DNA of 53,041 nt from Sedimenticola sp. (GTDB lineage: Bacteria; Pseudomonadota; Gammaproteobacteria; Chromatiales; Chromatiaceae), in NCBI GenBank assembly GCA_026984055.1, contig JALSSX010000172.1, positions 1 through 53,041 on the forward strand. The letters run 5' to 3'. The position numbers and the translations under genes are program-made. Numbering within the stretch: position 1 is the stretch's first letter; each line of letters opens with the position of its first letter. The notes beneath the pieces are model-generated. The model had not been told where the DNA came from. It saw nothing but the letters and a program-made list of their open reading frames with translations, and did no database searches. Positions 5,106-51,616 of the stretch are shown one piece after another.

Positions 5106-5702
5106 TCACTCGTCCTGTTTGTCGACGAGTCTTGCTTGATATTCCGCCAGTCGCTGGTCGAACTCACTTAACCATTGTGCATCGACGAAAGCCTTCAGGA
5201 TGCGGCGCACCTCGAACTGTTGGTCTTGGCCGCGTAGCTTGCGCAGAAAACCGAGTTCGACGACTTTGTTGATCTGGCTGTCAATCTGTTTGATCAGGCG
5301 CACGTCGTTGCTGCCACTGGGTAGAAAGACGCGCAGCAGCTCGACGATGTCGTCGCGCGACAGGATCAGCCGGGTGTCGCTGCCGCTGGCGTCGAATTCG
5401 GCGAGTTTCTTGCGTAGTAGCGCAAGCAACAAGCTGACTGGGAAAGAAAGTTGGCGGCGCGTCACTAGCCTTGGTGGTTCTGGTTCACCGTCGCGCGCCG
5501 GGCGCGTGCGTAGCCAGGCGTGGCCTTCCGCTTCGTCGAGCATCAGTTCCAGGCCGATCATGCCGACATAATCGCGCACCCGGGTTTGCAACGTCAGTAG
5601 GTTCTGCCATAGCGTCGGATCGTTCTCGGCGTAGACGATGCCCTTTAGCAGTGCGATCAGGGTGGGCGGCAGGGCGTCGCTGGTGGCTTCGGTAGTGTTC
5701 AT
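5106..5702 (-). CDS. jetB: Wadjet accessory subunit JetB (DUF4194, MukE-like)
   Basis: 198-residue DUF4194 protein. In Wadjet this winged-helix, MukE-like KITE subunit bridges the JetA kleisin and the JetC ATPase. Visible family features are an N-terminal segment ending in LLKGIVYAENDPTLW, a middle RQLSFPVSLLLALLRKKLAEF helix region and a charged C-terminus. Its ATG lies in an ATGA overlap with the jetA stop (5699-5702), so the two are probably translationally coupled. The 159 nt between its stop and jetC hold no recognised gene; the open frame there is Ser/Thr-rich and looks non-coding. Confidence 0.9.
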   Translation of the reverse strand: MNTTEATSDALPPTLIALLKGIVYAENDPTLWQNLLTLQTRVRDYVGMIGLELMLDEAEGHAWLRTRPARDGEPEPPRLVTRRQLSFPVSLLLALLRKKLAEFDASGSDTRLILSRDDIVELLRVFLPSGSNDVRLIKQIDSQINKVVELGFLRKLRGQDQQFEVRRILKAFVDAQWLSEFDQRLAEYQARLVDKQDE

Positions 5703-7141
5703 CGGTTGAAGATTATACGGGGTATTCCAGCGCTACGCCGGGCGCCATCGGCGCTCGTCCAGGTCACCTGATCGCGCCGGCTGTCGTCGAATAGCGCATT
5801 GTCGTCGCCGCTGGCGAGACTCAACCAAGTGAGCAGTTCCGCGAGCCCCTGTTCCAGTGGATGCGCCTCTAGCAGTGTCGGCAGGCCGATCTGTGGTTGC
5901 AACTGCAAGGCTTGACGGATGTATGCGGCGAGGCGCGCCTTGTCTACATAGGTCTGTTCGAACAGCGCATCGGCGTCCAGGCCGTCGTCCTCGGCGAGTT
6001 CGATATGATCATCGATCGACGGTTTGAAGGGTGGACGGTACAGCGGACGTTCCATCGGTAGGCTGATCCGTGCGCCTGGGTTGTCGATGCGCATGAAGGC
6101 GTCAGATGGCGCCTTGTCGCGGATCGCCAGCGCGCGTGTCTCGATCTGATGCAGCACCTCCATGATGCGCCGGTTCTCCAACCATGCCTGGTCGTCCAGG
6201 TAACGGCGTAGTTGCTGCGACAGGCGCGCAACGGTGCGCTGGGTCTGTTCGCCTGCCTCCAGCCAGTCGTAGTGGATGCGCTTCAGACGGCGGTCGGGAT
6301 TCAGCGCCTTGATCGGCGGCAGCGCCAGCGCCTTCTCCAGCAACTTGGTCAACTCCTCCTGGCGACTGGGCGACATTAGAAAATCCCAGAAGGCGCGGAA
6401 GCTACGGCCCTGGTCGGAATCGATGATGGCGTCATGTTCGCCGAAGATATCCCGCAACAGTTCGCCCTTGCCGCCTTCCCACAAGGCGATGCGTTCGCGC
6501 ACGCCGCGATCCAGTTCGCGAAAGTTTTGCTCTACCTCGCGGAAATCGGTCAGCAATTCGTGCGCGGTCGCGCCTAACTGCTGGAAGCGATCCTTCAGCG
6601 CGGTTTCGTCCAGCACCTTCAGGTTGCCGTCGCGGATGCGCGCGATTTCGTCGTCGATGGCTTCCTTGCGCTTTTCCAATTCCTCGATGCGCGCGGTCGG
6701 GTCGCTCTCCGCGCCCTCGATCATGCCTTGCAACAACTCGAAGACAGTCAACAGGCGCGATTCGGTGCCGACGAAGCTGCGGCCGCCCAGGCTGTCCAGC
6801 CAGGCGATCGCTTTCTCCGCGGCCGGAGTCAGGTCGAAATGCGCTTCGTCCAAACCGGGCGGATAAAACTTGCGTAGCCAGCCCTTTTCATCCCCCGCCC
6901 AGTCGTCCAGGTAGCGCGCGGCGGATTTTGGGAAGGCGTCGTCACCCAGGGCCTCGCGTAGCGAGAACAACATATCTTCCAGGCGTGACGCTAACTCGGT
7001 GTTCGACAGTATGCGCTCGTTCGGGCCGATGAAGGCATGTTGCAGGAAACTCGCGATCAACGGCGCGTGATCGGCGAGCAACAGCCGCCAAGCGGGATGC
7101 TGTTTGCGCTGACGGGTAAGGGTGAAGTAGTCGAGGGGCAT
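5699..7141 (-). CDS. jetA: Wadjet kleisin subunit JetA (DUF3375, MukF-like)
   Basis: DUF3375 protein, the kleisin-like subunit that links JetC heads and JetB in the Wadjet complex. The conserved beginning PLDYFTLTRQRKQHPAW and a following helical region are clear. A long central helical segment (LEKRKEAIDDEIARIRDGN) and a C-terminal winged-helix part complete the fold. I place the start at ATG 7141 (480 residues) because family members begin at this motif and GGGA lies just upstream. ATG 7183 and GTG 7228 are in-frame alternatives adding 14 and 29 unconserved residues. First gene of the operon. A strong Shine-Dalgarno plus ATG at 7265 opens a different frame that runs over the jetA start. Confidence 0.9.
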   Translation of the reverse strand: MPLDYFTLTRQRKQHPAWRLLLADHAPLIASFLQHAFIGPNERILSNTELASRLEDMLFSLREALGDDAFPKSAARYLDDWAGDEKGWLRKFYPPGLDEAHFDLTPAAEKAIAWLDSLGGRSFVGTESRLLTVFELLQGMIEGAESDPTARIEELEKRKEAIDDEIARIRDGNLKVLDETALKDRFQQLGATAHELLTDFREVEQNFRELDRGVRERIALWEGGKGELLRDIFGEHDAIIDSDQGRSFRAFWDFLMSPSRQEELTKLLEKALALPPIKALNPDRRLKRIHYDWLEAGEQTQRTVARLSQQLRRYLDDQAWLENRRIMEVLHQIETRALAIRDKAPSDAFMRIDNPGARISLPMERPLYRPPFKPSIDDHIELAEDDGLDADALFEQTYVDKARLAAYIRQALQLQPQIGLPTLLEAHPLEQGLAELLTWLSLASGDDNALFDDSRRDQVTWTSADGARRSAGIPRIIFNR

Positions 7142-7413: not shown

Positions 7414-7566
7414 GGGGATCTCGAAATATTCCTTCCATGGAATTTTTTTCGTCGCAGAGAGAAAATGCGATTTCCGTTTTTTCCACATTTTCAATCACTT
7501 ATCGTGATCGAAAAAGGTGGGACATCCCCCGTCTTACTCGGGCATCTCGATTTTTCGAGATGCCCT
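7414..7566 (+). repeat. Family B hairpin-array repeat, copy B1
   Basis: Copy of the roughly 150-bp family B element. It begins GGGGATCTCGAAA and ends in the palindrome GGGCATCTCGA-TTTT-TCGAGATGCCC, giving terminal inverted repeats of the type GGGNATCTCGAAA. Inside are the TTCCAT-loop hairpin with ATTCC/GGAAT stem, the AAAATGCGATTT loop, the TCAATCAC..GTGATCGA stem and a GTGGGAC/GTCTTAC hairpin. The right end lies 29 bp before the mscK start codon, so the last hairpins are likely part of the mscK leader. Confidence 0.8.
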
Positions 7567-48690: not shown

Positions 48691-48850
48691 TTAGCAGGAT
48701 GGTGAAAAAGTCCTTCCATGGGCTGTTTTAACGACGGAAGCGGAAAATACGATTTCCTTTTTGCTCACATTTTCAATCACTTATCGTGATCGAAAAGGGT
48801 AGGCATCCTTGTCCCACTCGGGCATCTCGATTTTTCGAGATGCCCTTTAG
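48691..48850 (+). repeat. Chimeric A/B hairpin-array repeat (A5)
   Basis: The left half is family A (TTAGCAGGATGGTGAAAAAG, GTCCTTCCATGGGC loop, CGGAAGCGG). From about 48755 it is family B (TTTGCTCACATTTTCAATCAC, TTATCGTGATCGAAAAG, TTGTCCCACTCGGGCATCTCG and the terminal palindrome). Both ends carry TTTAG. It stands between divergent chemoreceptor and DUF2173 genes. Confidence 0.75.
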
Positions 48851-49098: not shown

Positions 49099-49458
49099 AT
49101 GAGTGTCGTAGTGAATGAATTGGCGGGACTGCCCGGCGTGATTGCCGCCGGCGAGTATTCCTACCGGGGGGACCGGTATACCTTCAAGGGAGAATTGAAC
49201 GACGAGATGGCGCGCATGGCGTCGATCATGTGTCGCGCGACCAGCCTGAGTCAACATATGCAGGTTGGGATTCTCGAATCTTTCTGTCCGGATTGCGGCT
49301 TGTCGCCGGCGCGGGGCTGGGTGGTTCATGGGCCAAACTTCAGCGTATGCAATGTGGCTAATGTGTTCTGTTTTCTGGACAACCGGAACGCAGCGTTGAA
49401 TGATGTCGTCGAACTGATGAAGAAGCGCTTGGCCGATGCCGACACGGATCTGATCTGA
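49099..49458 (+). CDS. DUF2173-like protein 1 (roadblock/LC7-like fold suspected)
   Basis: 119-residue soluble protein. The C-terminal block GWVVHGPNFSVCNVANVFCFLDNRNAALNDVVELMKK is clearly homologous to the end of the third gene of this cluster. The N-terminal LAGLPGVIAAGEYSYRGDRYTFKGEL is also shared in pattern. It differs from the others by the pair CPDCG in the middle and several extra Cys. Start at ATG 49099 with GGGGGG upstream; a longer reading lacks support. DUF2173 has no known function; I infer a small profilin-like scaffold or regulator. Confidence 0.75.
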   Translation: MSVVVNELAGLPGVIAAGEYSYRGDRYTFKGELNDEMARMASIMCRATSLSQHMQVGILESFCPDCGLSPARGWVVHGPNFSVCNVANVFCFLDNRNAALNDVVELMKKRLADADTDLI

Positions 49459-49522
49459 TTCGCATTCAAGAATAAACCGGAAGACTCATGAAGATTCCGG
49501 GACAAAGCACCAAGGGGGTAAG

Positions 49523-49876
49523 ATGATGGAACTGAATAAACTGATGACGCTGAAAGGCGCGCTGGCGGCATTTTCATTCAACGACCAGGGCGAGCTGACC
49601 GAGCATCTGATCGCCGAGGGCAGTCAGTTGAACGAGACGGCGTTGGATCTGCTTGGCCACGTTTGCGTGGCGAATACCGCGATCGCGACCATGCAGGCGC
49701 GTGGTTGGGAGGCGGTGTCCGGGCAACAGGGTTTTTATCCGATCGATGGATTCTCGCTGATCGGCCTGGATTGGTCGGCCGTTGCGAACAAGCATCAGGG
49801 TGTGGTGATCGCCAACGAGGATGCCGACTACCAGGCGGCCTTCGACGCACTGGGCATCGAGGGAGGTGCGGCGTGA
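49523..49876 (+). CDS. DUF2173 family protein 2
   Basis: 117-residue soluble protein with the family beginning MELNKLMTLKGALAAFSFNDQGELTEH and end GVVIANEDADYQAAFDALG. The middle SQLNETALDLLGHVCVANTAIATMQARGWEAVSGQQGFYPIDGFSLIGLDW is typical DUF2173. AAGGGGG lies about 5 nt before the start pair ATGATG. It is more divergent from copies 1 and 3 than they are from each other. The stop overlaps the GTG start of the third gene (GTGA). Confidence 0.85.
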   Translation: MMELNKLMTLKGALAAFSFNDQGELTEHLIAEGSQLNETALDLLGHVCVANTAIATMQARGWEAVSGQQGFYPIDGFSLIGLDWSAVANKHQGVVIANEDADYQAAFDALGIEGGAA

Positions 49877-50205
49877 TTCGACAGCTGATGGTGCTCGACG
49901 GCGTCGCCGCGATCGCCAGCTTTCGCGATGACGGCCAGTTCGTCGAGGGCTACGGTATTCTGCCGGAGGAACAACTGCGCGCGCTCGCGACCTTCGCCCA
50001 TGACTACAAGCGCATCGTGCAGGGCAACGCCGACCAGTTGTCGATGTTCATCCGACTGTCCGGCTGGACACCGCCCGGTGGCTGGATCGTGCGTGCGCGA
50101 GGTATGAGTGTGTGCAGCGTCGCCAATCTGGTATGTCTGGTGGAGAACGCCGAGGGGAATCTGAGCGAGGTGATGAACGAGCTGCGCGAGGCATCACGCT
50201 ACTGA
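49873..50205 (+). CDS. DUF2173 family protein 3
   Basis: 110-residue soluble protein starting MIRQLMVLDGVAAIASFRDDGQFVEGYG and ending VCLVENAEGNLSEVMNELREASRY. The start is GTG 49873, with GGAGG 7-8 nt upstream, and overlaps the stop of the previous gene by 4 nt; a longer reading from 49663 is an out-of-frame run through gene 2. The SVCSVANLVCLVEN block aligns with gene 1. Its stop is 4 bp from the stop of the convergent phoH-like gene. Confidence 0.85.
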   Translation: MIRQLMVLDGVAAIASFRDDGQFVEGYGILPEEQLRALATFAHDYKRIVQGNADQLSMFIRLSGWTPPGGWIVRARGMSVCSVANLVCLVENAEGNLSEVMNELREASRY

Positions 50206-50209
50206 GTGC

Positions 50210-51616
50210 TCACAATGCCTGTGATGCGAAATCCGCCAGCCGTGAACGCTCGCCGCGTTGCAGGGTGATGTGGCCGCTGTGCGGCCACTGCTTGAAGCGG
50301 TCGACCACATAGGTCAGGCCGGAAGAGGTCTCGGTGAGGTAGGGCGTGTCGATCTGCCCGACGTTGCCGAGGCACACGACCTTGCTGCCAGGACCGGCGC
50401 GGGTGATCAGGGTCTTCATCTGCTTGGCGGTGAGGTTCTGTGCTTCGTCGATGATGATGAACTTGTTCAGGAAGGTGCGCCCGCGCATGAAGTTCAGCGA
50501 ATGGATGCGGATGCGGTTGCGCACCAAGTCCGCCGCCGCGTCTTGACCCCAGCTACCGGTCTGCGGATCGGTCTGCGTCAGCACTTCGAGGTTATCCATC
50601 AACGCGCCCATCCACGGGGTCATCTTCTCTTCCTCGGTACCGGGTAGAAAGCCGATGTCCTCGCCGACTGGCACGGTGACGCGGGTCATGATGATCTCGC
50701 GATAGAGATTCTTGTCCAACACCTGGGCCAGTCCGGCGGCGAGTGACAACAGGGTCTTGCCGGTGCCGGCGACTCCCAGCAGGGTGACGAAGTCGAGCGC
50801 CGGATCCATCAACAGGTTCAACGCCAGATTCTGTTCGCGATTACGCGCGTTGATGCCCCAGACGTTGTGTTTCTTCTGACGGAAGTCGTCGATCAGTTCG
50901 ATGATCGCGTCGTTGCCGACCTCGACGACACGCGCTTCCAGCGGGTTGTCGCCTTCCATATAGAGAAACTGGTTAGGATACCAGTCCTTCAGATCATCGC
51001 CACTGACCCGGTAGAAGGTTCGGCCTTCCTCCTGCCATGAGTCGATCCGCTTGGCGTGGCGTTCCCAAAAATCGCCGGGCAGTTCGGTGACGCCGGAATA
51101 GAGCAGGTCGACATCATCGAGAACCTGGTCGTTGGAGTAGTCCTCCGAATGCAGGCCGACCACGGATGCCTTGATGCGTAGATTGATGTCCTTCGACACC
51201 AGCGTGATGCGCGTGTCTGGCAGTTTTTTCTCCAAGGCCAGACAGGTACACAGAATGTTATTGTCCGGCGTGTTGCCGGGTAGGGCAAGCGGCATCTCCT
51301 CGCACAGCTTCTCGGTTTGGAAGAACAGCCGGCCGTGTTTTTCCGACGAGCCGTCGTGCTTGTTGGTGACTTCCGGCAGCGGCAGACCGTCCTTCAGTGC
51401 CTCTGGATCCATGCCGAGCAACAGTTCGTCCATGAAACGGCTGACTTGGCGCACGTTGCGCGCCACTTCGGACATGCCCTTCTTGCCGTGATCCAGCTCT
51501 TCGAGCACGACCATCGGGATGAAGATGTCATGCTCCTTGAAGCGGAATATGGCCGTGGGATCATGCATTAACACGTTCGTGTCGAGTACGAAAAGGCGGG
51601 ATCCGGGATTCAGCAC
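50210..51616 (-). CDS. PIN-PhoH fusion protein (PhoH2/YlaK type)
   Basis: 468-residue cytoplasmic protein. The N-terminal PIN RNase domain (about 1-150) has acidic residues in FVLDTNVLMHDP and VVLEELD. The C-terminal PhoH ATPase/helicase domain has Walker A LLGVAGTGKTLLSLAAGL and Walker B IIIDEAQNLT. This fusion (PhoH2) unwinds and cleaves RNA in studied members. Start is GTG 51616 with GGAGA 7-8 nt upstream. It is convergent with the DUF2173 cluster. Confidence 0.92.
   Translation of the reverse strand: MLNPGSRLFVLDTNVLMHDPTAIFRFKEHDIFIPMVVLEELDHGKKGMSEVARNVRQVSRFMDELLLGMDPEALKDGLPLPEVTNKHDGSSEKHGRLFFQTEKLCEEMPLALPGNTPDNNILCTCLALEKKLPDTRITLVSKDINLRIKASVVGLHSEDYSNDQVLDDVDLLYSGVTELPGDFWERHAKRIDSWQEEGRTFYRVSGDDLKDWYPNQFLYMEGDNPLEARVVEVGNDAIIELIDDFRQKKHNVWGINARNREQNLALNLLMDPALDFVTLLGVAGTGKTLLSLAAGLAQVLDKNLYREIIMTRVTVPVGEDIGFLPGTEEEKMTPWMGALMDNLEVLTQTDPQTGSWGQDAAADLVRNRIRIHSLNFMRGRTFLNKFIIIDEAQNLTAKQMKTLITRAGPGSKVVCLGNVGQIDTPYLTETSSGLTYVVDRFKQWPHSGHITLQRGERSRLADFASQAL

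Follow-up and report, generated by a model that had tools for sequence, protein, structure and literature searches.

Three consecutive genes of the DUF2173 family lie within a 53,041-nucleotide stretch of Sedimenticola sp. DNA, which was analysed as a whole (the window). The locus raises the question of whether their products (A, B and C) act together and, if so, in which process. The literature searched yielded no account of a function, a structure or a trio arrangement for DUF2173.

Locus and gene features

The features of the locus are listed below, with cysteines numbered from the first residue of each window protein:

49099-49458, + strand: gene A, DUF2173, 119 aa (ORF call and Pfam match); predicted roadblock/LC7 fold; conserved C45, C66, C84 and C91
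49342-49383, + strand: block SVCNVANVFCFLDN in A, common to C; beta4-beta5 hairpin in the A model
49523-49876, + strand: gene B, DUF2173, 117 aa, double ATG; divergent paralogue; predicted roadblock/LC7 fold; conserved C48
49873-50205, + strand: gene C, DUF2173, 110 aa, GTG start overlapping the B stop by 4 nt; conserved C81 and C88
50107-50148, + strand: block SVCSVANLVCLVEN in C, common to A (sequence match)
50210-51616, - strand: PIN-PhoH gene (PF13638 + PF02562), tail to tail with the trio

ORF calls and Pfam scores confirmed the three tandem genes of the initial annotation, and its proposal that the second and third are coupled was borne out by the 4-nt stop/start overlap (GTGA). The trio had also been described as ending against the PIN-PhoH gene; this is correct for the window, but the proximity of PhoH to the trio is local and not conserved at other loci. 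Upstream, a terminator-like inverted repeat (GGGCATCTCGATTTTTCGAGATGCCC, 48820-48845, followed by TTTA) is located between a divergent MCP gene and gene A, and its first arm (GGGCATCTCGA) recurs at 7540. This repeat was not found at the trio locus of the sister species (L002).

Family membership and relatedness of A, B and C

The three proteins matched DUF2173 (PF09941; curated cut-off 26.1 bits for the full domain) with 119.1 (A), 111.1 (B) and 113.7 (C) bits and E-values from 1e-34 to 4e-32. In a six-frame translation of the window, the motif SVCxVANxxCxxxN was found only in A and C, and these two proteins gave an ungapped alignment of 106 residues (26% identity, E 7e-12), in agreement with the C-terminal block earlier attributed to genes 1 and 3. 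B gave no direct BLAST match to A; it is nevertheless a DUF2173 protein that falls in the same tree, so its earlier description as a divergent paralogue is correct. sHdrH was considered as a possible DUF2173 relative, but the search turned up no sequence of it for comparison. No match to the trio was obtained among plasmids, and in PHROGs only B was matched, weakly (E 0.012), to a family of unknown function.

Fold of the proteins

AlphaFold2 models were computed for A (pLDDT 93.5, pTM 0.85) and B (pLDDT 92.8, pTM 0.84), and both have the topology alpha-beta-beta-alpha(long)-beta-beta-beta-alpha, as in roadblock/LC7. In structural comparisons (Foldseek, VIA-align), the best match of the A model was 3kye_C (Z 14.2, 107 residues) and that of the B model was 9jq8_A (Z 11.7, 97 residues); all the top PDB matches of the two models were roadblock, MglB or LAMTOR proteins. 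On the strength of these models, A and B are predicted to adopt the roadblock/LC7-type fold that had been supposed for them, and C, because it aligns with A, should have the same fold as A.

The relationship was not seen at the sequence level: none of the three proteins matched PF03259 (the Robl_LC7/MglB sequence family) at E-values up to 1, and hhalign of the trio against the PF03259 protein of the same genome gave probabilities of at most 0.1. A sequence search of solved structures returned no match, and no DUF2173 member with a solved structure was found.

Known roadblock dimers pair via helix alpha2 and strand beta3. In each subunit of the trio, the entropy of these two elements was below the protein mean. 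Inter-subunit coevolution showed no alpha2/beta3 enrichment, in an analysis that was underpowered (Neff 31) and recovered intra-chain contacts poorly.

Copy number, gene order and age of the trio

The Sedimenticola genome (3.16 Mb, 99% complete) encodes exactly three DUF2173 proteins: A, B and C. In the order-level sample, 10/119 genomes were positive, all 10 with three copies. At class level DUF2173 was present in 46/369 genomes, 39 of which had exactly three copies; the other sets comprised six copies (two trios) in one genome, two copies in one and a single copy in four, and in a genome with four DUF2173 genes one copy was on another contig and another was cut by a contig end. In six class-level positives, then, the set amounted to one or two copies or appeared to be split. 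This genome was the only positive among the 299 of the phylum sample, so the family is uncommon beyond certain lineages. Among the named carriers are Sedimenticola, Candidatus Thiobius, the Solemya velum symbiont, Thioalkalivibrio sulfidiphilus and Thiohalobacter.

The initial annotation had named conserved clustering elsewhere as a test. Three consecutive DUF2173 copies were present at 30/30 loci fetched by similarity to C, and the order A-B-C is common to about 60 distinct trios, so the clustering is indeed conserved. One genome (G137) carries two complete trios (L076 and L077), one of them divergent.

A quick tree was built from 190 DUF2173 copies with few alignment columns. In this tree the position-3 copies formed one clade (support 96), as did the position-2 copies of trios (support 95), and the position-1 copies formed two adjacent groups compatible with a single origin. 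The position labels required 3 changes, versus 89.7 expected from shuffles, and the divergent trios L059, L083, L082 and L067 were also matched by position. The three positional groups are old, which makes the trio ancient rather than the product of a recent tandem duplication; the triplication most likely predates the split of the carrier lineages. Where a genome has only one or two such genes (L044, L045, L073, L074, L075), the copies fall near the B group, and these might represent a simpler relative of the complex proposed below.

Intergenic gaps were compared across 59 loci, with approximate lengths because start codons were picked by a simple rule. In 16/59 loci the B-C gap was -4 nt, and most of the others had a B-C gap of -4 to 15 nt; the A-B gap was typically about 40 nt.

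These data bear on the idea that A, B and C are co-transcribed but form three separate homodimers with no joint complex. Single-copy DUF2173 in four genomes is consistent with such self-sufficiency, as is the homodimeric state of a solved MglB structure (3t1s). However, all three genes are strictly retained in fixed order in about 60 loci at differing chromosomal places, and B and C are closely spaced, so we regard independent homodimers as unlikely.

Genomic surroundings

In one set of lineages the trio stands in an lptF/lptG-RDD-trio-purL arrangement, with pepA and holC also among the neighbours; in other lineages pcnB, phoH, a VWA gene or other genes lie beside it. The sister species (L002) encodes proteins 90% (A), 88% (B) and 90% (C) identical to those of the window, yet its trio (around 5233-6321) has wholly different flanks and a different chromosomal place, beside a VWA-domain gene. 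Since the flanks vary between lineages and differ even from those of the sister species, it is the three genes themselves that are conserved as a unit. A functional link to the neighbours (lptF/lptG, pepA, holC, RDD, purL, pcnB, phoH) was rejected, these being housekeeping genes that change with lineage. No known sulfur genes were found beside the trio among the assigned neighbours.

Search for a GTPase partner

Roadblock proteins are mainly known as small-GTPase regulators or platforms. In prokaryotes, the gene for an MglB homologue is often coupled to one for a small GTPase (PMC4316618). Among the assigned neighbours in the window and at representative loci, no small GTPase was found beside the trio, so the gene coupling of an MglB-type GAP was not seen at these loci. 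A GTPase that we take to be of the COG2229 type (Pfam: ATP_bind_1, with weak Roc and SRPRB matches) was detected in 9/32 carriers versus 13/32 non-carriers and showed no co-occurrence with the trio.

Stand-alone small GTPases were also searched for with PF00025, and none was found in the 32 carriers. The same profile missed the COG2229-like GTPase of this very genome, so its null is weak evidence, and PF00025 was discarded as an insensitive small-GTPase test.

The trio could, in principle, be an MglB-like GTPase-activating or regulating module for a Ras-like GTPase encoded elsewhere: the A and B models match the MglB fold, and the genome encodes COG2229-like small GTPases at other places. An MglB-like GAP role is nonetheless disfavoured, and we consider it improbable, given the lack of a GTPase among the assigned adjacent genes, the similar frequencies in carriers and non-carriers, the fact that the genome's own COG2229-like GTPase adjoins a canonical PF03259 roadblock of its own and, in a non-exhaustive search, the PF00025 null.

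This GTPase and its roadblock neighbour are encoded on contig C136 of the same genome (L095, 1426-2443): a 120-aa PF03259 roadblock protein adjoins the 188-aa COG2229-like GTPase, and a gene with a PAS-like region lies downstream. The two form a GTPase-roadblock pair of the ordinary kind, distinct from the trio. More GTPase relatives are located on contigs C38 and C323.

Conserved cysteines

Among A orthologues, C45 was conserved in 98%, C84 in 93%, C91 in 87% and C66 in 85%. B orthologues retain a single conserved cysteine, C48 (89%), the counterpart of A C45 in the alignment, and C orthologues retain C88 (90%) and C81 (85%). Arithmetic on the element limits of the model puts A C84 and C91 at cross-strand positions of the beta4-beta5 hairpin; by alignment to A, C C81 and C88 would form an equivalent pair.

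The redox or metal role first suggested from CPDCG in A has become weak, as no more than 43% of A orthologues have its first cysteine (C63), and it is other cysteines of A, B and C that are conserved. The broader proposal, in which the trio carries metal, Fe-S or persulfide through its cysteines and the roadblock fold is mere support, is consistent with the 85-98% conservation of the A, B and C cysteines (A C45 being the highest) and with the cross-strand neighbours A84/A91 and C81/C88, but is unlikely, because CPDCG is not a conserved CXXC and B keeps only one conserved cysteine.

Association with sulfur oxidation and CO2 fixation

Among class-level carriers, soxB was present in 43/46 and dsrA in 33/46. 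One or both genes were found in 45/46 carriers versus 119/323 non-carriers (Fisher p 9e-17), and the association held when one genome per family was considered (G119-G275 plus G000): 19/19 carriers versus 53/139 non-carriers (p 7e-8). The trio was missing from 119/164 genomes with soxB or dsrA; as most sulfur oxidisers lack it, it is an accessory and not a core component of sulfur oxidation.

RuBisCO was found in 32/32 carriers and in 30/32 non-carrier sulfur oxidisers tested. With RuBisCO in nearly all the genomes tested, autotrophy and sulfur oxidation are inseparable as correlates of the trio, and RuBisCO was dropped as a discriminator of carriers, being near-universal in both groups and hence uninformative. 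Pyr_redox_2 was used to probe the sole carrier that has neither soxB nor dsrA (G419), but was rejected as too general to be informative. In Archaea, a DUF2173 membrane protein was 99-fold and 32-fold up on sulfur in two Sulfolobaceae, according to the one paper found to mention the family by name (PMC11323534).

A proposed three-subunit complex

The three genes are inherited as a set in fixed order and without the usual GTPase neighbour, and we infer that they probably specify one undescribed multi-part complex. We hold with moderate confidence that this self-contained operon encodes a hetero-oligomer built from three distinct subunits of the roadblock/LC7 fold, serving chemolithoautotrophic sulfur oxidisers. 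The initial annotation had considered a heteromeric complex plausible; the fixed trio, its order and its close spacing support the idea indirectly, while the assembly itself remains at the level of inference.

In such a complex, the subunits would most likely pair via helix alpha2 and strand beta3. The assembly would probably act in these bacteria as a scaffold or as a regulator and would have no dedicated Ras-like GTPase partner. The thiols (the cross-strand pair in A and C, and the alpha2 cysteine in A and B) may have a structural role or may serve to sense or hold sulfane sulfur. A more specific version, in which a GTPase-independent complex of three different subunits uses its thiols to sense or hold sulfane sulfur and so ties the cytoplasmic sulfur load to sulfur oxidation or carbon fixation, is speculative, and we think it quite unlikely to be right as formulated.

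Comparison with known systems

The predicted models of A and B resemble MglB (PF03259; Myxococcus xanthus 6hjm, Thermus thermophilus 1j3w) in fold and topology, with Z 12.2 for A against 6hjm_K and Z 10.7 for B against 1j3w_A. The trio differs from MglB in that it has no PF03259 match, no adjacent GTPase was found, and it comprises three paralogues rather than one. In M. xanthus, the partner of MglB in a bipartite GAP is RomY. That GAP, a bipartite complex with a roadblock-domain protein, acts on MglA (PMC9481161), whereas no such GTPase link was found for the trio.

LAMTOR/Ragulator (MP1-p14, LAMTOR2/3 and 4/5) provides a precedent for several differing roadblock-fold subunits in one assembly, as would be the case for the trio, and the A model matched 5y3a_B (LAMTOR) with Z 13.3 at about 8% identity; LAMTOR/Ragulator differs in being eukaryotic and in working with Rag GTPases. 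Beside these systems, a fixed set of three different roadblock-fold proteins untied from a GTPase in sulfur-oxidising Gammaproteobacteria would widen the bacterial roles of the fold, and the uncharacterised DUF2173 family gains a predicted fold, a candidate stoichiometry and a physiological setting.
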